Shown piece by piece: positions 7,996 through 63,800 of a DNA stretch of 64,000 nucleotides. The notes under the pieces were generated by a model, which saw only the letters and a list, made by a program, of their open reading frames with translations, was not told where the DNA came from and did no database searches. This DNA is from Malania oleifera (taxonomy: Eukaryota; Streptophyta; Magnoliopsida; Santalales; Ximeniaceae). Each line of letters opens with the position of its first letter. Positions within the stretch are counted from its first letter, which is position 1. The DNA is taken from positions 34,398,214-34,462,213 of the forward strand of contig NC_080417.1 of NCBI RefSeq assembly GCF_029873635.1, written 5' to 3'. The translations under genes were made by a program, and so were the position numbers.

Positions 7996-8268
7996 TTTGT
8001 AGCAACATAAAAAAATTGATTCATTCATATATGTATATATATAATTTTCTTTTTCTTAATATTTTCCATAGAAGTTTCATATTATGACTTAGACAAGGTA
8101 GAAAGATTATATGTAGAGACCCAAAAAATAAAAATGATAAGGAAAATAGAAGAAAAGAGGAAAATGGTTTGGTGAGGACAAAATCGACGACAATTTTCTG
8201 GAGTGCTAAGAAAACCGTCGACGGTTATATTTTTACCGCGGCCAAGTTAAGGGTAAGTAGTGAAAACT

Positions 8269-8767
8269 TGTAACGACCTCCAAATTCTAATCTTTTTTTT
8301 TATATGTATACAATAAACATTCCTACGCAACGGAAACATATATCATGAAACCATTTATACATAAACTGTACAATACCAGATTCTAGAATATATAGACCAT
8401 ATACAAAAATGCCACTTCAGTATTATCTATCCCAAAAACATACACATCTCTACCAAAAACTCACCCTATAACCAGGGTGACCAAACACTCTCTCTATCCG
8501 CGAGCCTGATCTGCTTGCCTATCTAGCTCACCTGAAAAATGTGAGAATAAAGGGGTGAGTCGACGCTAAGTAAGTGGAAATATGCTATTACTAGTGTGTG
8601 ACAACTAAGTTAAGGATACTTTTAAAATAATGACTGAACTGTAATGCAATAAATCATCTATAAATCATATCTTTCAAGCATATCTTTCTTTCTTTATTTA
8701 AAACATATTGTATCATCTGTTTTCTACTTTTCATACTGGTAATATCATACTATACTGTAAAACTGTA

Positions 8768-8802
<35 letters not shown>

Positions 8803-10405
8803 CTGTGCTTTTATCCCTAGGATTCTGTACGTCATGATTTGACTCCTCATGACAGGGTTGTGCGATCCGTAGGCGGGACTCTATCTGGTCGGCCCTCCAG
8901 ATAGGTCATTATACTCTACACTACCTCAGTCCAACCAAATTGCATCCTCCCCTAAGCTCGGGACTAGCTACTACCTCGTCAAACCGGCCTCCTCAACCCA
9001 GTGTACTGGGGAGCTGCATACTCTCCGAACACGGCTGACAGTACCCACATACAATCTGAGCTATGTGGTTGCACTCTATCTGTATCTAGCAATGGTACCG
9101 TGCTCTGTAATCTGTATCTGTTTGTGTAACTTTCCTCAGGGATCTGATACTGTATACATATATATATACTCTTTTACTGTTTTCATCGTGTTTCCAAAAT
9201 TACCATAACTCTGTCTTTCTGTACTGTAAACACTATATCTGTAGCATCTTGATGCTACCTCTGTATATCTATCTGTGTATTCTGTATATATACTCTATCT
9301 GTGTTCTTTATGTTTTGGTAATAGGAAAAACATGGCATGTTAAACTCTGTATTTACTGTTCTGTATAAGCTGTGATATAAATACTGTTCTGAATAACACT
9401 GTATACATGTATATGTATGTATATTTCTCTGTGAATATAAATCTATATCTGTATATTCTGTGTAAGTCCACATACTGAAAAAAAGCTTTATAAACTGCAT
9501 ATACTGTTATTAACTATGTACTCAGCATAGTATGATACATCACAAAACTATATAAATTCTTTATCTCATGAAAATCTACTCAGGCCACACAAGCATTTAA
9601 TTCATATTCTGTATAAACTAAATAATAATCTGGTATGAATCTATGTCTATAAAATCTCTGAATACTTTATAAAAATTCCTAGCATAGCATATTTCCCTTA
9701 CCTCAACTTTGAAAAGCCCCTATAAAAATCTGGTTGTATACCCGCAGGATTCCTAACCCGACATCCTGAAAACGCAATCCTCCAGAACAAAACATCAGTA
9801 TTTCCTAGTCTACATCATTTTCTATAACTGTCAGGGAGTAAAAAACTCAATAAAAGACCTTACTCAGAATCTGGGATGAAATCCAATTTCGTTTTCTCGA
9901 TGATCTGCTCCGGCAGATTTGTGGAGAACTCCACCAGGAGCGTCGTGGTAGCTTCGGATCGTTGATCCGGCGACTGGTGGGGCCAAAAATGAAGAGAGAA
10001 GGGAGAGAGAGTCGTAGAGAGAGAGAGAGAGAGAGAGAGAGCTCGGAGGAAAATGATAAATATCCTGGATTTCAACTATTTATAGAACAGGGGATTTCGT
10101 CGACGAGTCCTTCACAGATTTCGTCGACGAGACCCTGTATTTATCGATGAAATTCAGGCTACCTCAGAACCCCTCTCGGTATTTTCTCGTCGACGAAGCT
10201 CTGTGTTCGTCGACGAAATTTATAAACCACTCGTCGACGAATCCCTGTATTCGTTGACGAGTCCTTGTAATTTCTTGAATTTCTTGAATTTCTTTTATTC
10301 TCCAAAATGTAATGTCGTCGACGAAATCTACAGTCTCCTTCTGTTTATGTATCTATTTTCCTCTCTCTTTAATATTTGAATATGGATATTTTCTGGGTCG
10401 TTACA
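8269..10405 (-). mobile_element. Nested solo Ty3/gypsy LTR
   Basis: The stretch runs TGTAACGACCTCC ... GGGTCGTTACA and is flanked by exact AAACT duplications (8264-8268 and 10406-10410). Read on the minus strand it has the standard order of this LTR type: TGTAACGACCC end, a palindrome array (10324 down to 10097), a TATA box CTATAAATAG (about 10083-10074), CT-rich leader, AG|GTAAGG (donor-like, near 9701), and CATTTTTCAG|GTG (acceptor-like, near 8532). It is about 2.14 kb long with no coding region. A (TA)n microsatellite lies at 8771-8800 and a (GA)n at 10016-10041. Confidence 0.9.
10097..10324 (-). promoter_or_regulatory. Phased TCGTCGACGA palindrome array upstream of LTR TATA box
   Basis: Six exact TCGTCGACGA palindromes start at 10097, 10121, 10187, 10207, 10231 and 10315, and two degenerate ones at 10141 and 10251. 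Steps are 24, 20, 46, 20, 24, 20 and 64 bp. The array lies directly upstream (on the minus strand) of CTATAAATAG. The spacing closely matches the arrays at 29038-29202, 32765-32950 and 61036-61199. The function is unknown; a repeated binding site for a dimeric factor is the natural guess. Confidence 0.75.
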
Positions 10406-11232
10406 AAACTGGTTTGGCTAAAGATAAAACCGGCGACGATTTTCTAGGAGCCTAAGAAAACCGTCGACGGTTTTTCTCTGGGAGAGAATAGTATATATGG
10501 GCTGCATGTCATTTTCTTTGAAAATTACAAAACTTCCTCTCTCTTTCTCTCTCTCTTCATTTTCTCACTCTAAACTCGCCCCATTGACGATCAGACTCCG
10601 TATTTAAGGCTTAGCGGCAATCCTCATCAATTTGATGGGAACAAAATTATGTTTTAATGATCCCAAATACCACTCCAAAGTTGAGATAAGGGTGTTAAAT
10701 GTCGGTATTTGATTTATTAAATGAAGGATGTGGGTTTAGAGATATTCAAATGATTATAATTGTGGGGGTTAAAGTTGATTGAACGGGGAAAAATGTAAAT
10801 TTCAGGATTTTGGTGCGGATGCCGCAGGCACGGGTTTAGAGTCCCTGCGGGCGTTTCCTCAGGGAATGAGCTAAGAATAATAAATAGTTGGTTGTTTGAT
10901 GTTTCATTAATTAAATGGAGTATGTGGGTTCGAGAAAATGTGAATGTGATATTATTCTGGAGGATACATAATTTCAGGGTTTTTGAGTTCTGAACGTTGC
11001 GGGCGTGAGTATAAAATTTTAGCAGACCTCTTGAGAATCTGGTAAGGGGAATAAGTTAAGCTAGATAAATTCAGAAATTTTATCAATTAAAGTACAACAT
11101 GTGTTTATGAGATTTTAACATATGATTTACTGAATATTATAGAATATAAATTTAGAGTATGAAATTTGGATTTTACATCTGTTGTATATTTATGAAAATT
11201 CAAAAATTTGGGTTACAGGAAAGTTTTACAAA

Positions 11233-20279: not shown

Positions 20280-20660
20280 TTAAGGTTCGGTCAACCAAGT
20301 GTTTAGGTTCGTTCAACCGAGAGAAATTTGAACTAGAAGGATGATCGACCGTATTTGAGGATTTCAAAGGCGATTTTCCAAATTCGCGCAATTCGGTCAA
20401 TCGGGTCAATTTGAATTACGAGATTCGGTTGTCTGGGCAATTGACATTTCCCACATGGGGGGTTCGGTCGACCAGGGCGTTGCCCATATGTTTTTGGTCG
20501 ATCGACCGGGCGGTGAACTTGTTGACCCAGGAAGGTTCGGTCAATCAAAGCTTGCCTATATACTTTTGGTTGGTCGACCGAGCGGTCAACTTGTGACCTG
20601 ATGGGGGTTTGTTTGACCAAAGATCTTAGTGTAACTGAGTTCGGTCGATCAAACATGCCA
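20280..20660 (-). promoter_or_regulatory. GTCGAC-type palindrome array in copia LTR
   Basis: About ten degenerate copies of a TCGGTCGACCGA-like dyad lie here, for example TTCGGTCGACCAGG near 20462, GGTCGATCGACCGGGCGG near 20495, GGTTGGTCGACCGAGCGG near 20568 and TTCGGTCGATCAAAC near 20640. They lie upstream, in LTR orientation, of a TATATATA box near 20142-20151. Confidence 0.65.
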
Positions 20661-27694: not shown

Positions 27695-29037
27695 CGAAAC
27701 TCTCAGGTTGGCCTAATTTTTACCGAAGTTAATTGGGGTTAAACATGGTTAATTTTTTAAAACTCAATTAAAATAATTTTAATAATTCCCCTGGTGTCCC
27801 CAACGATTATAATTTTGGCTAAGTCTATAAATATGAGTTCATTTGTTCAATTAATTAGTGATTAACATTGTGATTAGCATTGAAACTCTTCGAAATTTTT
27901 CAAAGGTCAAAAAGCCTATACCCTCACATACTAATATTCCTTTGCTAAATCAAGCCTTGTGAGAGTACCTTGAGTGATTATACTTTATTCCCATTTTCTA
28001 GAAACTCTCATTGTGCTCATTGTTTGTTTGATTTTGGGATTGAGAGTTGTGCATAGGTTTTCCCCCAATTTAATCTAATAAATCTATTGTGCGGGAAACC
28101 TTAAAGCTTGTGGGTCTTGGGATTTGAATTGCAAGAAACCTTAGCTTGTGTTTTTTAGTATGCAAAAATCTTTTCACAAACTCATTTTTCGAATATCTCT
28201 TGTACTTGAATATTGAGAAAATATTTTTTAAAGATATTTTGATTACTCTTGGTGAAAATCTTTGAAACCCTAAATTGTTATTAAGATTTACATCTATACA
28301 TTGTTTCAAAGATTAGTTTGTTAATACACTGTTGTGCTTGATTAAATAAAGACATTATATTGAGTGTTGATTGCACACATATAGCACTGAGCTTATAGTT
28401 CTTATATCATTGATGCGCATTGATTAATACTGGTATAAATATGCTTGTCTAAGAAGCATAAATTTTGTACACATCTTGTATTGTGAATTGGTTGTATTCC
28501 AGGCATGGCCTGAGGGGGTGTTAATCCAGGTCGGAAAGATTGATTATAATGGTTGAGGTCAACCTTGTGTTAATTCGACCTAGTTGTATTTTGGCGCCGC
28601 TCCACCCGTGAAGTGAGCCTTAGTGGAATCCTTGTACTTGTGAGCCAAAGCGGTGATGTAGGCACATTTGTCGAACCTTGATAACATATCTGGTGTTATC
28701 TCTCTTTACTTGCTTTTCTGTGCATACATAATTAGTTTACTTGTGTAATTTAATTTTAGCTGAATATATTGATTTATTTTATATCTGCACTAGATTGACC
28801 ATAGGATTGTGTAATACTGCTGCTGGATAATTGACCTAGGGGAGAAATTTTTAAAATACCAATTCATCCCCCTCTCTTGGGATTACAGTAAAGTTAACAA
28901 TTAGTATTAGAGTTAGATTGCTTATGTAACGACCCAAAAAACTTAATTAATAAAAAAAATAAAAGAAGAGAAAAAGGGAAGAAAAAAGAAATATTTTAAA
29001 GGGTGTCAGCAAGAAATTGTTAATGAACCAACTGGTC

Positions 29038-29202
29038 TCGTCGACGAGTCTTCTACCTTGTCTTGTCGACAAGGGCACATATCTCGTCGATGAGGAGTTA
29101 CCGAGAGGGGTTTTCATATTACTGAAATTCATCGACGAGTTTCTAATTTCATCCATGAATGATGTTCTTGAACTTGTTGACGAGTCCACGTGTCTCGTCG
29201 AC
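29038..29202 (+). promoter_or_regulatory. Phased GTCGAC palindrome array, 5' LTR of the gypsy element
   Basis: Cores start at 29040, 29065, 29086, 29131, 29151, 29176 and 29197 (steps 25, 21, 45, 20, 25, 21 bp). The first and last sites are exact TCGTCGACGA and the middle ones are degenerate. The TATA box CTATAAATAG follows at about 29213-29222. Confidence 0.75.
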
Positions 29203-29463
29203 GAGTCACTACCTATAAATAGCGACTCCTTTCATATTTAGCAGAAAAATTCTACATGTTGTCTCTCTCTCTATCTCTCTCTCTCTCTCTCTCTCCCCCT
29301 CTCTCTAGAAAAATGACCCTCTCACTTTATCTCTAGGTTTCTGGCCCCATTTCTCCTCGATTTGACGATCGGAAGTTACCATGAGACTCTTGGGAAGATT
29401 CTCTGCAACATAGGCGGAGCAAAATTTCAATTTGAGAAGTTTGGGAAACATCCCAAAATCAAG

Positions 29464-30805
29464 GTAAGTGAGATAATTTAAGGGGTTTTTTTTTTATTAT
29501 TTTAAGATATATGGAACCTAGGAAGTATTAAATGAGTGTTTTTCTGAGATTTGAGAAAGTTGAGATTTTTGGAATACAAGGTCTCGTGTTTGTGCGATTT
29601 TAGACTGAATCCCGATGAGCTCGTAAAGGGAAATATTTTATAACAATATTTTTATTAATTTTAAAATGACCAATTTTGGGTATAAACTCTACATATTCAG
29701 GTATAATTTTCTGAACCGTGCAGGCATTGAAAATACTGCTTTTGAATATATAATATATTGGGTAAAATTGTGTGGCATGAAAATAGTTTTGAAAATTAAA
29801 TGGTTGCGAGTACTGTGGGATAATAATTTAATGTGATTGTGAATACTGTTTGGGTTGCGATTTTTGCTTGGTTGGAATGCTAGTTGGTTGTAAATACTGT
29901 TTGATTGTGTATACTGTGGTAGATGTGAGGATGTGTTTGAGTGGTTGGATTTGCTTTTGATTTGTGTTGTGGTTCATGTAAATTGCGATATAGCGTTAGC
30001 AGTGGTATAAGGAGGTCATTATATTGTACTTGATATAATCGTCATATAACGTTGGCAGTGGTTTGAGGAGATCCTTATATGGGCGTTTATATTGGGGGGT
30101 AAAACATTGGCAGTGGTATGAGGAGTTTGTTTTACCTATTTACCATGAACAGGGTGGTATGTGTTGTAATCTGTGTGATGATAAGTTCTGTGTGGACGTT
30201 GCGTTCTGTGTGAATATGGACTCTGTGTGGGTGAGAATGGATAATGTGAATATTCTGTGTGGATTGGTTGTGGTATGCATATATGTGTGGAACTCTGTGA
30301 AATGACTAGCATTGGTTGCGTGTAATTTTAATTACTTAAGTATTTATGATAAAGTAAAATATTCCGCCCGAGAGCTTGTTGAGGAAGACGAGTACTTTGG
30401 TAATTATTTGTGGATACTAGAGTAGAGGGAAGCCACTTGTATGGGTGAATGACCTTCCCTATTCTCAGAGAGTTTACTTGGATACATAACCCGAGGGTTT
30501 ACTGAGAAAGGTGAGTACCCTCGTGTTAGCACTAGAGTAGAGGGAATCTATTTGTATGAGCGGGTAGACTTTCCTATTCTCTGGAATTATCAGTAAAAAT
30601 AATTATGTATATGTGTATGTGATTGAGTGACAAAGAAGTTGACAATGGTGTGATTATGAATGCGTCTTCTTGGTTGCTATTGGTGGTGTAATACAACTGT
30701 ATGTATTTTGTAATTATATATTAAACACTTCAGTCAGACACTGTTGTAACTTATTTCTTCCTTACTGAGGTATATCTCACCCCTTCGATTTATCAATCTT
30801 TTCAG
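29464..30805 (+). other. Candidate intron inside the 5' gypsy LTR
   Basis: ATCAAG|GTAAGTGAG at 29458-29472 fits a strong 5' splice site about 240 bp past the TATA box. TTACTGAGGTATATCTCACC near 30762-30781 followed by a pyrimidine-rich stretch and CTTTTCAG|G (AG at 30804-30805) fits a branch-point and 3' splice site. The corresponding positions in the 3' LTR are donor 33178 and acceptor 34564. That a leader intron is removed is an inference from the signals only. Confidence 0.4.
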
Positions 30806-32764
30806 GTCTTTTAGGTGATTGAGCTTAGAAAGCTCTAGGGTGGGCTAGTTTTGTGAGTAAATAAAAAGAACGGATATGTATAGTTTTATGTTTAATTATT
30901 CTAGTCATGTAATGTGGAGAATGTGGTTGTACCTTATGGGTTTGCATATGTGAATATGGAACTCTGGTATTATGTTCGAGGTTATTTTATTATTTCTATT
31001 GCGTGAATGGTATCAGAGATGTTTGGATGGTCTCATAACACTCCGGGACCCACGTGGCGAGTTTGAAATGTTACAGTTGGTATCAAAGGGTAGATTAGGG
31101 TGTTGACAGGAATTTGAGTTTGTTTCCTAACTTGGAGATAGAAACCCCTTGGTGGACTTTTGTGATTTTCTGAATCAGTTAACGGTTTCATAAAACCACG
31201 GTAAATCTATTGACGATGATGTTTCCAAGTAGAGAAACTGAAATTTGGAATGAATTTGAAGGTTAAAATGATTGCGGATAATTGGATGTTGGATATTTAA
31301 TTGAGGATTTGGATATTAAATTGGTTTTATGTTTTATGTTTTATGAATATGTCAAACAAATATTAAGATGTGGAAATTCTAAATTGCCTCTGTTGTATAT
31401 TTATATTTAGGGATGGATCCTAGAGGAAAAGGTGTGGATGAAGGAAGAGGAAGCGAGCTAGGAGCTTCTAGAGGGGATGAGATTGACACCTCTTGACTGT
31501 TACGAGGAATAGCTCGTCAGGTTAGGGAAGAGATGAGACGAGATTTTGGGGGATCAAGTTACCCACCAATGCACTAGCGTTGCATGATTGATCAATTCAC
31601 CGGCTTGAAACCCTCATCTTTTGAGGGTGGCACTGACCTGGTTAAGGCTGAGATGTGGATGCAAGAGATGGAAAAGATACTCGCAGTGTTGAATTGCACC
31701 GAGAAGAAGAAGGTTCTTTTCACCACCTTTAAGCTGGTTGGAGAAGTTGAACGGCGGTGACATGCGATGAAGCTGTTAGAGGAACAGCGAGCAGTACCTA
31801 TGGCGATGACCTAGAGTCGATTCAAGTAGGTTTTCTACGACCGATATTTTCCCGCCACTACTAGAAATGCAAAGGAGGAAGAATTTTTCAACCTGACTCT
31901 GGGACGCTTTACTGTTCAACATTATGCTGCTAGGTTCCTTCAACTATCCGCTTTGCACCTTCTATGGTTCCAAATGAATACCAAAAAGTGAGGTGGTTTG
32001 AAAGGGGTCTGAATCAGAGAATTCATGAGTATATGGCGTGTTTACAGATCCAGTATTTCGCAGAATTGGTGGAGAAAGCTACTGTTGTAGAGTTGAGTCT
32101 GCAGAGAGGTGCAAAGGCTGAATGAAGGAAAAGGCCTACGTCTCCTCATTCCCAAGAAAATGTTAAACAAGGGTTGTGGAGGGGAGACAAAGATGTTGCA
32201 GGTTAGAGGTTAGAAAGAAATGATCGGGGATGACATAGTGATTCCTCACGCCCCCACTACCCTAGATGTAACCAGCGGCGTTGGGGAGAATGCCAAAGTA
32301 GGGGTGTTGTGTGCTATAGATGTGGAAAATATGGTCATATAGCTCGAGAATGTTGAGAACTACCAAACAATGCACTAGCTCCAAATCAGAACTAGAGGAA
32401 CAACCCGGTGCCTCGCGGCGGCTGTGCCCCGACACGTGTCTATATGTTGGGTACACCTAAGGAGAACAACACTAAAGGCCCAACTAATATGTTTATGTTA
32501 GCGTGTGTACTAATTTCATTTGACTTTGCATGATTCGGTGTTGTATATGTTTGAATTGGTTGAAATATATGAATGTGGTTAGTTAGTTTTTTAGTGTGTA
32601 AATGGGTGATTAACGAATTTTGAGGATGAAACTCCTTTAAGGAGGGGAGAATGTAATGACCCAAAAAATTTAATTAATAAAGATAATAAAAGAAGAGAAA
32701 AGGGGAAGAAAAAGGAAATATTTTAAAGGGTGTCAGCAAGAAATCATCGAAGAACCAACTGGTC

Positions 32765-32950
32765 CCATCGACGAGTGTTCCATCTTGGCTCGTTGATGAG
32801 GGCACATGTCTCGTCAATAAGGAGTTACCGAGAGGGGTTTTCATATTACTGAAATTTGTTGACGAGTTTTTGGTTTTGTCCACGAACGGTGTTCTTGAAC
32901 TCGTCGACGAGTCCATTTGTCTTGTCGAAGAGTCCACGTGTCTCGCCGAC
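32765..32950 (+). promoter_or_regulatory. Phased GTCGAC palindrome array, 3' LTR of the gypsy element
   Basis: Cores start at 32767, 32792, 32813, 32858, 32878, 32903, 32924 and 32945 (steps 25, 21, 45, 20, 25, 21, 21). The last step is one extra site compared with the 5' LTR. Several sites have drifted while spacing has not. A TATA-like CTATAACTA follows near 32960. Confidence 0.7.
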
Positions 32951-33842
32951 GAGTCCCTACCTATAACTACCGACTCCTTTCAGTTTTAGCGGAAAAATTC
33001 TACATGTTGTCTCTCTCTCTCTAGAAAAACTTCCTCTCACATTCTCTCTAGGTTTCTAGTCCCGTTTCTCCTTGGTTTGACGATCGGAAGCTACCACGAG
33101 ACTCCTAAGAAGATTCTCTGTAACATAGGTGGAGCAGAATTTCGATTTAAGAAGTTTGGGAATATCCAAAAATCAGGGTAAGTGAGATAATTTAAGGTTT
33201 TATTATTATTTTGAGATATATGGAACCTAGGAAGTAATAAATGAGCGTTTTTTTTTTTTTTTAGATTTGAAAAAGTTGGGAGTTTTGAAATATAGGGTCT
33301 CGTCTTTGTGTGATTTTAGACTGAATCCTAAGGAGCAGGTTGGGGAAAATATTTTATAGCAACCTTTTTATTAATTTTAAATCGGCTTATTTTGGGTATA
33401 AACTCTACATATTTAGGTATAATTTTCTGAACCATGCAGGCATTGAAAATACTGCTTTTGAATATATAATATATTGGGAAAAATTGTGTGGCATGAAAAT
33501 AGTTTTGAAAATTAAATGGTTGCAAGTACTGTGGGATAATAATTTATTGTGATTGCGAATACTGTTTGGGCTGCGATTTCTGCTTGGATGGAAATACTGG
33601 TTGGTTGTAGATACTATTTGATTGTGTATACTGTGGTAGATATGTGGATGTGTTTGAGTTGTTGGATTTGCTTTTGATTTGTGCCGTGGTTCATGTAAAT
33701 TGTGATATACCGTTGGTAGTGCTATAAGGAGGTCGTTATATGGGCGCTTATATTGAGGGATAAAACATTGGTAGTGGTATGAGGAGTTTGTTTTACCTAT
33801 TTACCATGAACAGGGTGGTATGTGTTGTAATTTTTGTGATGA

Positions 33843-33975
33843 TTAGTCTTGTGTGGACTAGTCTTGTGTGGAAATGTATGTTGTATGTATGATAGTCCTG
33901 TGTGGACCAGTCTTGTGTGGACGTGTATGTTGTGTGTCCTAGAGTCCTGTGTGGACGTTGCATTCTGTGTGAATA
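33843..33975. repeat. Short tandem repeat expanded in the 3' LTR
   Basis: Units related to AGTC(C/T)TGTGTGGAC occur about five times here. The matching part of the 5' LTR (about 30180-30230) has only about two. The two LTRs therefore differ by repeat-number change as well as by point changes. Confidence 0.75.
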
Positions 33976-35743
33976 TGGACCCTGTGTGGGTGAGAATGGA
34001 TAATGTGAATATCCTGTGTGGATTGGTTGTGGTATGCGTATATGTGTGGAACTCTGTGAAATGATTGGCATTGGTTGCATGTAATTTTAATTACTTAAGT
34101 ATTTATGGTAAAGTAGAATACTCCTCCCGAGGGCTTGTTGAGGAAGGCAAGTACTCTGGTAATTATTTGTGGATACTAGAATAGAGGAAAGCCACTTGTA
34201 TGGGTGGGTGACCTTCCCTATTTTCGAAGACTTTACCTGGATACATAACCCAAGGGCTTATTGAGAAAGGTGAGTGTCCTGGTGTTAGCACTAGAGCAGA
34301 GAGAATCTACTTGTATGGGCAGATATACTTCCCTATTCTCGAGAATTATCAGTAAAAATAATTATGTATATGTGTATGTGATTGGGTGACAGAGAAGTTG
34401 ACAATGGTGTAATTATGAATGCGTCTTCTTGGTTGCTATTGGTGGTGTAATACAACTGTATGTATTTTGTAATTATATATTAAACACTTTAGTCACACAC
34501 TGTTGTAACTTATTTCTTCCTTACTGAGAGGTGTCTCACCCTTTTGATTTATCAATCTTTTCAGGTCTTCCAGGTGATCGAGCTTAGAGAGCTCCAGGGC
34601 GGGGTAATTTTTGTGAGTAAATAAAAAGAACGGATATGTATAGTTTTATGTTTAATTATTCTGGTCATGTAATATGGAGAATGTGGTTGTACTTTAAGGG
34701 TTTGCATATGTGAATATAAAACTCTAGTATTATGTTGGAGGTTATTTTATTATTTCGGCTGCGTGAATGGTATCAGAGATGTATGAATGGTCTCATAATA
34801 CTCCGGGCCCCACGTGGCGGGTCTGGGGCGTTACAGCTTAGACTTGATCGTTAATTTGTATAAAGATCTAGATGGCTCATAACATGTAACCCCTTTCCCT
34901 AAGGGACCCTCTTCCTCACGTCCTTTTATTTTCAGTAGTGTCAATTACCCCTTTTGGAAACAAAGGATGCGCATTTACGTTCAGAACATTGACTGGAAGG
35001 TGTGGAGAGTATTCTCTAAGGGAAACTATGTTCCCATGAAAACTGAAGGTGAAATTAGAATTCCTAATACAGAAGATGAATATACTGATGAGGATATAAA
35101 AGTTGTTAGTTTAAATGCTACTGCCATGAATAATCTCTATTGTGGACTTGATGTTAATGAATTTAACATAGTTATGGCTTGTTCTTTAGCTAAGGAGATA
35201 TGGGATAAATTAGAGGTCACCTACGAGGGTACTAGGGACGTTAAGGATAGTAGGCTAGACATGTTGACCAGTGAGTATGAAGCATTTAGAATGAATACTG
35301 GTGAGTCCATTTAGAGCATGTACACTCGCTTCACACACATTATTAGTTCATTGCATGCATTAGGTAAGATATATCCCACATATGAAATGATTAGAAAAAT
35401 CCTTAGGATATTGCCACTGGTTTGGGAAGCAAAGGCTACGACCATATATGAGGGTAGAGATCTTAAAGTTATGTCACTAGATGAACTGATAGGTTTACTT
35501 ATCACGTATGAGGTAGCTATTAATGAGAGACTAAATTAGCATAATAGAATGAGAAAAGTGACTGCTTTAAAATCGTCTACTAATACTTCTAGTGAGTGCA
35601 ATGAACCTGAATCTGGAGATGACATGACTATACTTACTAGGAAGTTCAGTAGGTTCTTTAGAAAGAATAACAAGTCATATAGAAAATTTAGAGATTTAGG
35701 TCTCTTTTTTTTTTTTTTTTTCAAAGAGTTAAAAAAAAAAAAA

Positions 35744-57253: not shown

Positions 57254-59829
57254 TGTTGTGCAACACGCCAACAATCACTTGGGTCTGATATCGATTGATG
57301 TTCTCAACAATGCCCTCGGAAACCAATTATCGGCGTCGAATGTGCGCAACGGAAGACCTCACACAAACTCTCACTAACAATCAATGTAACAAGCAAACAA
57401 GTACTTGATGATGAACTATACGAACCTAACAATCACTCAACAATGAGAATCAATGAAAGCAACAATCAAGACACAAGAATTTATGTGGTTTGACAATTTG
57501 CCTACATCAAGAGGAGTAGCGTCAATTTTCACTATCAATAATGAAGCTTACAAGCTCTGAAGCTTAATCTCATCCAGGGTTACATAATCTACTAATCTCG
57601 GATTCGAAAATCTGTAACTTGCACCAATTGAAACTGTCGACGATTTAACCAAACCATCGACGATTTTGAGCAGAAAGAAATACCTCGCAGCTACTGCCTG
57701 AAACCCTCGACGGTTACACCCCAAACTGACAACAGTTTGCCTTCAATGGCTACACCCTGCATCTCTCTCTTGGTCCCTCACTTCACAGTAATTTCCCTGA
57801 TACATGTGTTCCACTCAAAATATAAGCCACATCCCTAACAATCTCCACCTTGGCAAATATTCAACACCTAAGATAAATCTAAAAGCATAATCCCCCTGCT
57901 ACTCCACCCGAGCCAGTAGATTGGGAGCCACCTCCCTCTAACACCTAGAGGCATAAACCAAGTCCAAGCCATGCTTGAACTTGACCGTGGTAACAGGAAC
58001 TCCACCTAACTGAACACTCGACTCCTTGAACGATCTTATGAACCACAATGCTACCTTGGCAGCCTCTACCTCTGCCAAGAACTTTGATCCATTTGTAACC
58101 AACACACCTTGAGACTATACCCTGAACTTCAAATAATTAGGCCTTCCCACAACATACCCTATTACAAGCCTCCTGTCTTCCAAGTCCCCTGTGTAGCCTC
58201 CATCTGCGAACCTCACAACTGACAGATCCCTATGTTGCTCACCGGAGTACCCAATTGCACTGGTGTAGGAAACCTTTGACATGACCCCAACATCACCATT
58301 CGTCCGTGAGTACTGAGCGGTAGATTGTTTACTTAGTTTCACCAACAGGGTACCAGTCCGGTTTAGCATTAATCATGCTAAACCTCTCCAACACCTGATC
58401 TCTAAAACTACCTTGGGATAACCACAATCTCCATGTAGTTTTGTCCATACAGTCATCTTGAGATAACACTAATGTCCCTGCAACTATGACTACAAAGTCA
58501 CCCAGAGATAATCCCAATCTCCCTGTAACTTTAAACTTGTGAATCTCCAACTCAAGAATACTCTTGCTAGCACCCAATACCTTCATGTCAACTTCCTTTC
58601 TCAACAGAGTTGCCAACTGATTTACCTCAATTGAAACCTTCCCAACAATCGGCATGTCACTCATACAAAACAACAGAATATTGCCCACTTGCATCCTATC
58701 TCCCTCTCCCCATATGGGACCACCACCAACACCATTGTTTGATTCTTATATAATGCCTCCATCTCCTCCACCATGACACTTATCCACATACCCATTTCTT
58801 GGCTGTGCGCTGCCTCTTGAAAGGTAGTAGGATCCTTCCTAGTATTAATGGTTGCATAAGACATCAGATCATACTTGGGCGGTGGCCTGACAGTGCCTCT
58901 GAGCCCATTGTGATCCTACTGGTTTCCCGAGCTTAAACTCCCTGCATTACGACCAATGACATCTCTGCCTTGAGTCTTAAACTCCACCTGCATCACGATC
59001 TCCTTTTTGCTCTAATTTTTCCTATGATATTGCAAGTCTCCTAAATTAGAACTCCCTACACTCCTATCATGAGTCTCCAACTCACCCGCACAACATGTTC
59101 ATTATTGTTATTACAACTTTTTGACACTTGTTTCTCTTCATCTACCTAAGTACGTTGTCCCATGGCTTTAACACCTAAATTCATGTCTCCACCAATCGCC
59201 ACCCTGTTTTCCATTGGAGCACCTAGTTTGAACCCATTTTTCTTATATACCAAAAAGATGCACTTTTCGGATATAACACCAAGCCTAGATCCTACCTCAC
59301 TAGAAATGTGCATAGCTGGAGCCCCAAAGTCTATCGCATAACCAGTCCAAACCTCTCTTGCAACTCTCTCATCTAGTGATACCTTTGGCGATCGATTAAC
59401 CGAGAAACACGTCATACTCATTGACTTCACCAAGAAGTCCCTTACAAGCCTTACATACACCATGCTCTGCTCACAAAACTCCTTGAACACCAGCGTACTT
59501 AGAACCAATATCTGACCTAAGGAACTCTCTCCCAGTCTGGTACTTCACCTCAGCCACAAGTTACACCTAGCAAATAACTCCAACTTGTGTCGCATGAGAT
59601 ACCTCCAGACCTTTCGTGATAATCTCATGAAATACCCATGTCCAACCCATGATTATGCCCTCACCTGTCCCCAAACATCCACACCAATGTAGCTAAGAAT
59701 ACCCACCATTTTGTGTGTAGTTATTTTACACAAAACGGTATTATCTGACTCATAACTCTTAGTTGCAGCTCCACCTTACCTTGTAGTGCATAGAGATTCC
59801 CTGTTATCCTTTGTCCCTTCATTACTATC
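57254..59829 (-). mobile_element. Ty1/copia remnant (3' LTR, RNase H, RT, integrase)
   Basis: The left LTR (57254-57840, about 587 bp) ends CCTAACA and is followed by ATCTCCACCTTGGC, a reverse-complement purine tract. Moving right, the minus strand reads RNase H (GYTGDLEDRRLVIGYV near 58120-58210), then reverse transcriptase (VLGASKSILELEIHKF and VLERFSMINAKP near 58350-58620), then FQEAAHSQEMGMW (near 58800), then the integrase C-terminal region (RSPKVSLDERVAREVWTGYA and KCIFLVYKK, 59250-59400). The parts are in correct copia order for the minus strand. Gag and the 5' LTR are missing, and the coding part is broken in several places. A copia LTR in the opposite orientation abuts at 59830. Confidence 0.88.
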
Positions 59830-60600: not shown

Positions 60601-61035
60601 GAACCTCTTGAGTTGTCCAATTTTTCAGTGCAAAAACGTCATTAAGTTTGAAATAAACAAATTAATTATTTCCCATTAGGTCCCAAATGGTCATATTTTG
60701 GAGAAGTTTATCAATACCCCTCTCATAACTCATTTCTTAAGCTTTTGATCATTTTGAAAATCCTCTCAAATTATTTGTGCTTTATTTCTCAATTTCAAGC
60801 AAGCAATTTATACTCTTTTTATTATTCCTTTGAAAAATCATTTCTTAAGAGAGTATTGATTTCTTCTTACTCCCTTCACTTGCAAATTTATTGCATTTGA
60901 GGGTTGTTCAAGGATCATTATTGTGGGAATTTATTATATCATTTAAAGCACTTACTGTAATGACCCTAAGAATAATGATATTTAAATAAAAAGAGAGGAA
61001 ATGAAAATAGAAAGAAAAAGGGGTGGCAACAGACT

Positions 61036-61199
61036 TCATCGACGACGTGGCGTTATGGGCTCGTCGAGGAGGGTGTGCTTCGTTAATGAGAAGATACCGA
61101 AAGGATGTTTTGGCAATTCTAAATTTCGTCGACGAGGGGGAAAGTTCGTCAACGAATTGTCTTCTTGACCTCGTCGACGAGGTGACGTGACTCGTCGAC
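61036..61199 (+). promoter_or_regulatory. Phased GTCGAC palindrome array in solo gypsy LTR
   Basis: Cores start at 61038, 61063, 61082, 61128, 61148, 61173 and 61194 (steps 25, 19, 46, 20, 25, 21). Exact TCGTCGACGA occurs at three of them. The array ends about 12 bp before AATAAATAG. Confidence 0.75.
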
Positions 61200-61957
61200 G
61201 AAGGTCAGTGAATAAATAGTTCAAACTTCATTTTTTGGCTGAAACTCGATGCACCAAGCCCTCTCTCTCTCTCTCCTCCCTTCATTTTCCCTCCCTTCTC
61301 TCTAAGTTTCTGGGCTGAATTTATGCTGGTTCGATGATCTGAAGTCACCATGGCACTCTTGGGGAAGTTCTCTGCATATCTGCTAGAGTGGATCGTCGGT
61401 GGGGATAGTTTGAAATTCATCCCTGAATCAAGGTAAGGCTATTTATTCAAAATTTGGTCTTCCCATAGTTATAGGAAATGTTATTCAAAGAAAAATACTG
61501 AAGTTTAGTTCAAGGAGTTGTCGTTTTCAGGGTATTGACCGGGAAACCCTGCGAGTGCAGGACTAGTGAATTTTAAGGGGGTTTCTTTTTAGTAATCAGG
61601 TAAGGGAATAAACTAAAGCAATCATTTTCATGCAAATTATTATTATTTATCAGCTAATAAATTTTCAGGAAGTATGTATTATATATATGAGTAGATTAGT
61701 AAAAATACATACTTGGGAAAATACTGCTATTATGTTGAAATGTATATACATTATGAAATGCGAGAAAATATGATTTTAGAATGGAATGTATTGTTTTATT
61801 CAGCATTGTGTGGCATGAATATTATTTTACATGGAAAGTATTATGTTATGGCAATTCTACAAATAATGTATGTTTTCAGAGATTATAAAATGATGCAGTG
61901 CATTATGATTTCAAAATACATGATAAATGAATTATTTATTCAGGAAGATAAGTATGA

Positions 61958-62040
61958 AATGTTCGGCGCAAGGCCGTGTATTTATGTATGATTTTGGCAC
62001 AAGATCGTATTTATGAATGTTCGACGCAAGGTCGTATGAA
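61958..62040. repeat. ~36-bp minisatellite in solo gypsy LTR
   Basis: Variants of GTTCGGCGCAAGGCCGTATTTATGAAT recur about three times (GGCGCAAGGCCGTG, GGCACAAGATCGT, CGACGCAAGGTCGT). They lie in the intron-like part of the LTR. Confidence 0.7.
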
Positions 62041-63583
62041 TGCATGTATGTATGTATGTTATTACAGAAAATGCTATCAATCTATTTATGTTAGACAAGT
62101 ATATTATCATATATTATATGTTATCAGAACCCTGATGTTAGTTTAGTTCAGTTACAGGAGCACGGTAGCTATACAAATCATATTATTATGTTTAGACTTG
62201 TGCTAATCGCCCTTGCAAGTAGAGGGGGTGGGATATGGATAGTTGATGTGACTTTCAGTGTAAAGTTATAGACATCCACCTGGCAGTTCGGACCAGGGTG
62301 TGGCGGGTCCATCGTACTTATAGACATTTTTTACTAGGTAGTGGTCGGCCAGCCATTGTCGGGTCCCGCCTTCGAGCTGCATAACCCGTTATAGGGAGTA
62401 ATACATGACATCAACTAGCTATACATCCTGGGTAAATTTCTGTATTATTAGTTATATAAAACATTTCATGATCAATATGAATTATTAGAAATTATGAAAT
62501 TATATGCTTATTCCATTATGTTATGATGAATGTTTTTCTAGTATATGAAATGTACTGTATATGTATTATAGCACCAAATATTCATGTTGTCACACAGCTG
62601 TATTTAGTTTATTTTCCCTTACTGAGAGGTGTTTCACCCCTAACATTAATTAATTTTTTAGGAAACCCAGAAAGACTGGCGGGTCGAGGCCGCCATTGAG
62701 ATAGTGTGATATTACCCTGCTATGAGGGTAAGTTTTGATCTAGGGACAAGAAATTTATGTTGTGGGTTCCTAGATATGTAAATATTTTGTGTTTTTGGAG
62801 ATTGTACATAAACACGGTATTTTGGGAATGTTATTGACTCTGGTATTATGTATTTTATGGTTTGAAAAATGTGATTTTTATTTACTGCTGCTTAGATTTC
62901 CGCTGTGAATATCAGGTGTGTCCCCGTTACCCATGGGTTCGGGTTGACTTTATTACTAAATATGTTTTATTATATGACAAGATAGGCAGGTCGTTACACT
63001 TACTCTCACTCAATCATTATTTTTGAAAATCATTATAGAGAGTAAAGTTTGAGTTTCTCCACATATTTCTTTGATAAATATTTTCAAAGAAACTTTACAT
63101 AGCTTGTGAATCCTTCTGCATCTCCATTGCAAGATTAAAAGGTTCACATATTCTTTATTGAAAAAATCTTTTTAAGCAAAATCCTAAGCTTCTCCTACAT
63201 TTACTTTGAAATATATTTTTTGAGAAAGTATTTGGGTGGGTCAAGAGAACCTTGAGCATATATACATCTATATATCTTTGTTTGGAAGGTCTCTCATATT
63301 TTGTTCTTGAGAAAATTCTTTTGAAAGAAAAACCCTAAGTTCTCTTACATCTTTATTGAAAAATATTTTTGGGAGAAAATTTTCATTGGGGTTAAATCTT
63401 CGAAGTATTCGTCATAAATATTTTATTCAAAGATTTCAAAAAGTTTTATTGAGAAAATTACTATACTCTATTGAGCTTATTTCATATCATTTGAGAGTGC
63501 ATTTAGAACTTTATTGTGTACATCTTTGCTTAGTTTGCGAAGCACTTATTTGTACGAAAATTCTTATTGAATTTGGAACGGGG

Positions 63584-63800
63584 TTGGCTCCACCTGGTAA
63601 CTGAGCTAAGGATACTTTGCCCTGTAAGGAGAACCAGTTTGGCTCCACCCGGTAAGTGAGTTAGGGAGACTCTGCCTTGTAAGGAAAACTAGTTTGGCTC
63701 CACCTGATAAGTGAAGTAGGGAGACTCCACCCTATAAGGAGAAACTGTTTGGCTTCGTATGGTAAATGGGCTAGGGAGACTTCGCCTTTTTAGGAGATTT
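63584..63800. repeat. 55-bp minisatellite, about four units, in copia LTR
   Basis: TTGGCTCCACC(T/C)GGTAAGTGAG-like units start at 63584, 63639, 63694 and 63749, exactly 55 bp apart. Each continues AGGGAGACTCTGCCCTGTAAGGAGAAC with small changes. The related LTR at 26973-28899 has only a single such unit near 28590. Confidence 0.92.

Follow-up and report, generated by a model that had tools for sequence, protein, structure and literature searches.

Rows of short palindromes in plant LTR retrotransposons have been described for the Sireviruses, a Ty1/copia group, and their palindromic repeated motif (RM) is, on the excerpts of the papers cited here, the closest known kind to the arrays that we report. 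According to the excerpted text of PMC2829016, a Sirevirus carries at least eight RM palindromes when the linker is counted, most of the LTR copies lie upstream of the TATA box, and the motifs form CpG islands. The RM sequence varies between elements, a CGG-CCG signature is present in all but one of 13, and the authors regard the RM as Sirevirus-specific, as against classic Ty1/copia elements; they were unable, in this 2010 paper, to name a factor binding the arrays. For the palindromes of maize Sireviruses, a hairpin or small-RNA silencing role has been proposed. Host-factor sites in plant LTRs are known as well, among them the heat element of ONSEN and the W-box of EVADE, to which known factors bind (PMC12786077, excerpt).

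The LTRs of Malania oleifera resemble the RM system in that one palindrome is clustered before the LTR TATA box, in up to eight or nine slots, and forms a CpG island; the Vitis Sirevirus RM, CGGTCGACCG, has a GTCGAC core in common with the Malania dyad (PMC2829016, in part). They differ from it in that the elements appear to be Ty3/gypsy, that neither the dyad (TCGTCGACGA) nor its sister class (CCGTCGACGG) has the CGG-CCG order, and that the sites form a ladder of set steps at a nearly fixed distance from the TATA box, a ladder not described in the excerpted text of PMC2829016. With ONSEN and EVADE the arrays have in common that short cis motifs of host type precede the start site within the LTR, whereas the excerpt of PMC12786077 mentions no ordered palindrome ladder and the word palindrome is absent from the paper. 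Among the titles and abstract openings listed from the open-licence literature, we recognised no such ladder in Ty3/gypsy LTRs. A reported insertion preference for palindromes (PMC6911290, excerpt) was considered and has no bearing on the ladder.

The ladder in the window and its carrier element

The window analysed is a stretch of 64,000 nt from Malania oleifera (NC_080417.1, positions 34,398,214 to 34,462,213). It contains an element of Ty3/gypsy type on the plus strand (28925-34835), flanked by a target site duplication, GCTTA, at 28920-28924 and 34836-34840. Its 5’ LTR (28925..31075) and 3’ LTR (32652..34835) are direct repeats 3.7 kb apart; duplication and LTR ends were read by eye. Between the LTRs lies only a broken gag (31578..32356), recognised by a Retrotrans_gag piece below the cut-off (E 2.8e-4) and a zinc knuckle above it (E 2.7e-7).

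The first-pass annotation had reported seven palindromes in the 5’ LTR with steps of 25, 21, 45, 20, 25 and 21 bp, and we recovered exactly these, with starts at 29038, 29063, 29084, 29129, 29149, 29174 and 29195. Numbered outwards from the TATA box, motif matches place slot 1 at 29195..29204 (exact), slot 2 at 29174..29183, slot 4 at 29129..29138, slot 5 at 29084..29093, slot 6 at 29063..29072 and slot 7 at 29038..29047 (an exact TCGTCGACGA); slot 3, with three mismatches, was read from the sequence at 29149..29158. An eighth slot, decayed in this copy and absent from the earlier list, lies 21 bp upstream of slot 7 (29017..29026); it was placed from the sequence and from family copies, 9 of 40 of which have it with 0 mismatches. 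Slots 4 and 5 are separated by a 35-bp gap (29094..29128) with a block that is not a dyad, and is conserved in type A arrays (defined below) and family copies. Spacer 1 (29184..29194) contains CACGTG at 29187-29192. Slot 1 begins 19 bp, start to start, before the TATA box; the family alignment places TATAAATAG at 29214..29222. All of these features lie on the plus strand.

The 3’ LTR has nine dyad slots (32744-32952) and one extra step of 21 bp, its steps being 21, 25, 21, 45, 20, 25, 21 and 21 (slot starts 32744 to 32943). The extra step falls in a tandem array whose 21-bp unit comprises a dyad and an ACGT box and which adjoins the TATA box (TRF, 32900-32956, 2.7 copies, 80% matches). The last dyad likewise lies 19 bp before a TATA-like word.

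Two further ladders, in the LTRs at 8269 (minus strand) and 60958, read as previously given. The first belongs to a solo LTR (8269..10405, minus strand; ladder at 10097-10324 by motif matches), with ends and target site duplication (AAACT, 8264-8268 and 10406-10410) read by eye; the second, on the plus strand, has its ladder at 61036-61201 in an LTR delimited as 60956..62900, where 62900 marks only the limit of reading. Overall, 38 matches to TCGTCGACGA at no more than two mismatches lie in the window, compared with 5.27 expected, and 0 of 100 shuffles reached 38. Other repeats were observed in the window. Six GGTCGACC-like sites (two exact) accompany a 72-bp tandem repeat at 20289-20655 and are reminiscent of the Vitis motif; two decayed dyads 20 bp apart (57634-57663) are perhaps the remnant of another LTR promoter; and an array of a 55-bp unit (63584-63797, 3.9 copies) lies close to the window end.

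The element type was read from one pol-bearing copy, L128 (C1:16,895,500-16,905,300), which was found through an LTR-end and primer-site pattern. It carries dyads (212-391) before its TATA box, one slot not being found, and has a similar LTR end. Its Pfam matches run Retrotrans_gag (3057), RVP_2 (3836), RVT_1 (4844), Integrase_H2C2 (5792, below cut-off) and SH3_Tf2-1 (6829), so that the order is PR-RT-IN, which identifies this copy as Ty3/gypsy by domain order, and not the PR-IN-RT order of the Sireviruses. No Pfam match was obtained for 5 of the 10 ORF pieces scanned, including the piece after the integrase end, and no chromodomain was matched in the ten pieces of this broken copy. A Tekay/Del chromovirus label would presumably fit the LTR start and the integrase end. 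At another locus (L079, 1-9001), LTR-like direct repeats lie 5.5 kb apart and similar repeats again 1.8 kb apart; none of its six frames of at least 90 aa looked pol-like by eye.

Scale and step classes in the genome

We surveyed the Malania oleifera genome itself (1,494,336,490 bases in 510 contigs), using the same patterns read backwards as a control. Exact pairs of TCGTCGACGA separated by a gap of 5-35 bases occur 28,616 times, and 2,498 exact pairs have a step of 25; the reversed control gave 0 for both. Exact pairs of a dyad and TATAAATA, 3-33 bases apart, number 17,964 (9,608 + 8,356), a count in which the same promoter may appear twice, as against 4 (2 + 2) in the control. The original observation is thus real, and much larger than reported: a row of about eight palindromes before its own promoter is carried by thousands of mobile elements in this genome.

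Steps are confined to few classes. Among 100 exact pairs listed from the start of contig C1, the centre steps were 19-21 (52), 24-26 (22) and 43-45 (26), and none fell outside these classes, the allowed range being 15-45. Dyad-to-TATA distances among 100 rows listed were 19 (38), 21-22 (11), 29-32 (14), 37-43 (36) and 15 (1); within the 37-43 rows the commonest distance, 40 (26), corresponds to one slot further out. Distances of 19 and 30-31 had suggested that the TATA distance is quantised by one helical turn, an idea dropped in view of the 11 rows at 21-22.

To compare whole ladders, we oriented arrays by their TATA box. Of 71 arrays found, 55 could be oriented; the other 16 were set aside because no TATA box was recognised (11) or because one lay on either side (5). 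Adding the two window LTRs brings the set to 57. Apart from the window arrays, all were taken from the initial 17 Mb of contig C1, with an exact pair as the criterion of choice; one such pair per array was omitted from mismatch counts but kept in pairwise identities. Slots were assigned to whichever position matched best, allowing a shift of a few bases. Two types were defined by TATA distance, A at 16-23 and B at 28-33, so only the concentration within each type is a result: the distance was 19 in 36 of the 43 type A arrays and 29-31 in all 14 of type B. Counted from the TATA box, type A arrays usually step by 21, 24-25, 20, 45-47, 19-21, 25 and 21, and type B arrays by 20, 25, 20, 50-51, 21, 24 and 19-21, with exceptions at most steps in both. 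The ladder reads nearly alike from either end.

Grouped at 80% identity over 200 bp, the arrays form 31 families when all alignments are used (22 of type A and 9 of type B), and 32 with best alignments only. For those type A families that could be used, stepping outwards from the TATA box gave 21 in 16/21, 24-25 in 18/21, 20-21 in 17/17, 44-47 in 16/17, 19-21 in 15/19, 24-25 in 16/18 and 20-21 in 11/13; the TATA distance was 19 in 17 of the 22. Under the loosest linking by flank homology all 57 arrays fall into a single component; therefore, the families are not independent and the constancy is partly descent. Step lengths were unequal in 2,336 of 4,584 type A comparisons; 1,311 of the unequal ones differed by 1 bp, and mis-slotted arrays are included in the count. 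Mis-slotting affects arrays that lack the first site or have an additional one (window_10096, window_32744 and others) and inflates step variation in the type A comparisons, the identity and per-spacer analyses included. Step differences amounted to 2.03 per 100 bp, compared with gap openings in the flanks of 5.05 (upstream) and 3.49 (downstream) per 100 aligned bp; these are different measures, and the steps are lower, but not by much.

Conservation of dyads, spacing and spacers

We sampled the window’s own family without reference to the dyads, using a dyad-free probe of 531 bases downstream of the TATA box. It gave 5,248 candidates, and all 40 that were scored matched (two further short pieces were excluded). 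The aligned family set (n = 40) comprised the promoter stretches of 38 copies outside the window, on 13 contigs, and the two window LTRs. Modal steps were held in 39, 36, 38, 29, 37, 37 and 37 of the 40 copies and a TATA distance of 19 in 37. Aligning LTR copies of the family for their spacing, as had been suggested, thus showed the ladder to be conserved, each modal step in 29-39 copies.

Sequence conservation within the family was 0.912 at A/T positions of the dyads, 0.726 in spacer columns and 0.610 at CpG positions of the dyads. When bases were matched, the A/T dyad positions (0.912) still exceeded A/T-majority spacer columns (0.839, P = 0.008). This contrast is modest because most change inside one family is decay after insertion; the strong contrast between dyads and spacers is the one between families. 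For 899 of 903 type A pairs, dyad identity was 0.75-0.77, spacer identity 0.53-0.59 and shuffled-spacer identity 0.49, and the upstream flank of 150 bp gave 0.61-0.62, a value without a shuffled control. In the 4 closest pairs the spacers (0.848) exceeded the dyads (0.816). Best matches at spacer midpoints averaged 5.6 mismatches, those at the slots 1.0-3.0.

The earlier expectation that the DNA between the sites is less conserved than the sites held between families for most spacers, and failed for two. In 34 of the 43 type A arrays, the TATA-adjoining spacer reached 0.742 compared with 0.540 when shuffled, and the 45-gap 0.713 compared with 0.563, while the remaining five spacers were 0.04-0.10 above their shuffles. 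Spacer 1, between the last two dyads, often carries an ACGT core (32/43 type A arrays, 0.87 expected; 25/40 family copies), which occurs in spacer 5 in 4/43 and in the other spacers in 0/43. Among the matches listed, 14 rows lie 28-32 from the TATA box, and 9 of these contain GTCAA.

The 45-bp step had been taken for a 20 + 25 step from which a site was lost. This explanation was not supported: none of the 40 family copies has a match of three or fewer mismatches in the gap, where the best match averages 5.30 mismatches (4.91 shuffled), and the gap has its own conserved block. In the wider set of 57 arrays such a match was present in 11, with 3.2 expected; all 11 have at least one slot at 4-7 mismatches, a sign that their slots were mis-assigned.

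A ladder of this kind could have arisen by duplication of units of 21, 25 or 45 bp and persist by descent without function. The extra 21-bp unit of the 3’ LTR relative to the 5’ LTR fits such an origin, as do the slight likeness of half-arrays in direct order (0.548, shuffled 0.500) and the homology of all flanks. Between families, however, most spacers are near-random and the dyads are not, and CpG-rich dyads should be the first to go under methylation, but 155 of the 456 slots remain intact (a figure that includes the pairs used to find the arrays). Since dyads and spacing are kept while spacers are near-random between arrays, we regard a relic of one duplication as quite unlikely. Of the alternatives to drift proposed from the window, a repeated site for one dimeric factor or a structured promoter, the former, as a predicted dimeric site, best fits the retention of dyads and spacing across type A arrays.

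A candidate enhancer and a second dyad class

We consider it fairly probable that the ladder is a composite U3 enhancer of a large clade of Ty3/gypsy LTRs, bound by a dimeric protein. Each dyad would be recognised by one dimeric protein that binds DNA sequence-specifically. Sites paired 20-21 bp apart, or two helical turns, would present their proteins on the same face, where they could cooperate in activation; pairs set 24-25 bp apart would make up two groups of four around the conserved 35-bp gap. An ACGT box in type A, or a GTCAA stretch in many type B arrays, would complete the promoter together with a TATA box whose distance hardly varies. ACGT boxes bind bZIP and bHLH proteins.

Several observations count against an enhancer. 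The term phase-locked, used in the first-pass annotation, describes the near-constant spacing well but does not apply to helical phase, as steps of 24-25 and 45-46 bp are no whole turns. Double changes at mirror positions inside dyads were not in excess (19/74, null 15.4, P = 0.18), and compensatory change within dyads was rejected on this ground. Common descent, the 4 closest pairs, the low conservation of CpG columns, the variation of steps between arrays and RNA folding above controls also weigh on this side.

The CpG content of the arrays is made by the dyads: observed/expected CpG is 1.77 in arrays, compared with 0.58 in their spacers, and is 0.73 upstream and 0.83 downstream, so the array is a CpG island of the dyads’ making. 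In dyads with four or fewer mismatches, 350 of 446 changes were C>T or G>A, an excess of the kind expected if the CpGs are methylated. Under the enhancer reading, CG methylation would be expected to switch off the array, eight intact dyads providing 24 CpGs in an island. The same decay and CpG ratio would also suit arrays that mainly attract DNA methylation and silencing, as an island seen by the host, rather than activation. The elements would gain nothing from keeping such sites, and the ACGT box and TATA distance point to a promoter; we hold this explanation to be very improbable.

The main rival to an enhancer is RNA or single-strand structure, in which the self-complementary sites of the 3’ LTR part of the transcript would pair into hairpins that serve the element or small-RNA silencing. 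Any two sites can pair, and in 57 arrays the fold energy was below controls with shuffled spacers (mean z -0.98, se 0.17) and with re-dealt spacing (mean z -1.16, se 0.16); z was -0.60 (se 0.16) when 3 nt were kept on each side of every dyad. Palindrome regions of Sireviruses are small-RNA hotspots (PMC5311732, PMC10760457; excerpts). The effect on folding is small, however, and pairing needs neither the near-fixed TATA distance nor the ACGT box. Mirrored spacers of the half-arrays were not reverse-complementary (0.468, shuffled 0.500; 34 arrays), so no long hairpin is kept. We judge a structural role unlikely, though less so than duplication or silencing. The same comparison removed a mirror-symmetric inverted duplication of half-arrays from the candidates.

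The protein that would bind the proposed enhancer is probably the host’s own, because we recognised no additional gene in the only pol-bearing copy read. It could instead be a dimeric regulator encoded by the elements, with an anti-silencing or autoregulatory role. Two dyad classes keep apart, with 37 mixed pairs, as if each lineage had its own factor; but 37 is not few relative to the small size of the second class. The window element has gag only, and the Pfam matches of L128 are gag, protease, RT and two integrase domains, with none after the integrase end; as a single decayed copy, L128 is a weak test of an extra gene. An element-encoded ligand seems to us distinctly improbable. This gypsy case has a single 10-bp core, exact site pairs in the tens of thousands and a tight ladder, and offers a sharp bait for a binding protein, which could reveal the factor driving a large group of Malania oleifera retrotransposons.

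The second class (CCG) has 86 exact CCGTCGACGG pairs genome-wide, often in the form AAACCGTCGACGGTTT. In the first 50 of these 86 pairs, the steps were 20-22 (13), 27-31 (27) and 40-44 (10), near two, three and four turns. The 37 mixed TCG/CCG pairs compare with 28,616 TCG-TCG and 86 CCG-CCG pairs, and in 27 of them the flank is the TTT typical of CCG dyads. Alignments of about 67-77% over 200-660 bp connect some loci of the CCG type with TCG-type LTRs, a comparison confused in part by nesting. Beside an exact dyad, sites of the CCG class were exact in 172 cases (the 86 pairs counted both ways), changed on one side in 48 and 66, and changed on both in 37, roughly double the 18 that independent sides would give. 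We set this excess aside as a sign of compensation, because copies differing in age would produce it too and TCG-type flanks occur in a few of the 37.

A promoter grammar of the clade could be imagined, in which lineages switch the outer bases in every one of their dyads at once, from TCGTCGACGA to AAACCGTCGACGGTTT, together with the step set (20-21/24-25/46 to 21/30/42), each tied to a different dedicated dimeric factor that is possibly element-encoded to escape silencing; we think this doubtful. Two dyad classes with two step sets in seemingly related LTRs provide a natural experiment on the rules of site spacing. The minus-strand solo LTR of the window splits another LTR, which has AAACCGTCGACGGTTT-type dyads at 8215-8224 and 10461-10470.
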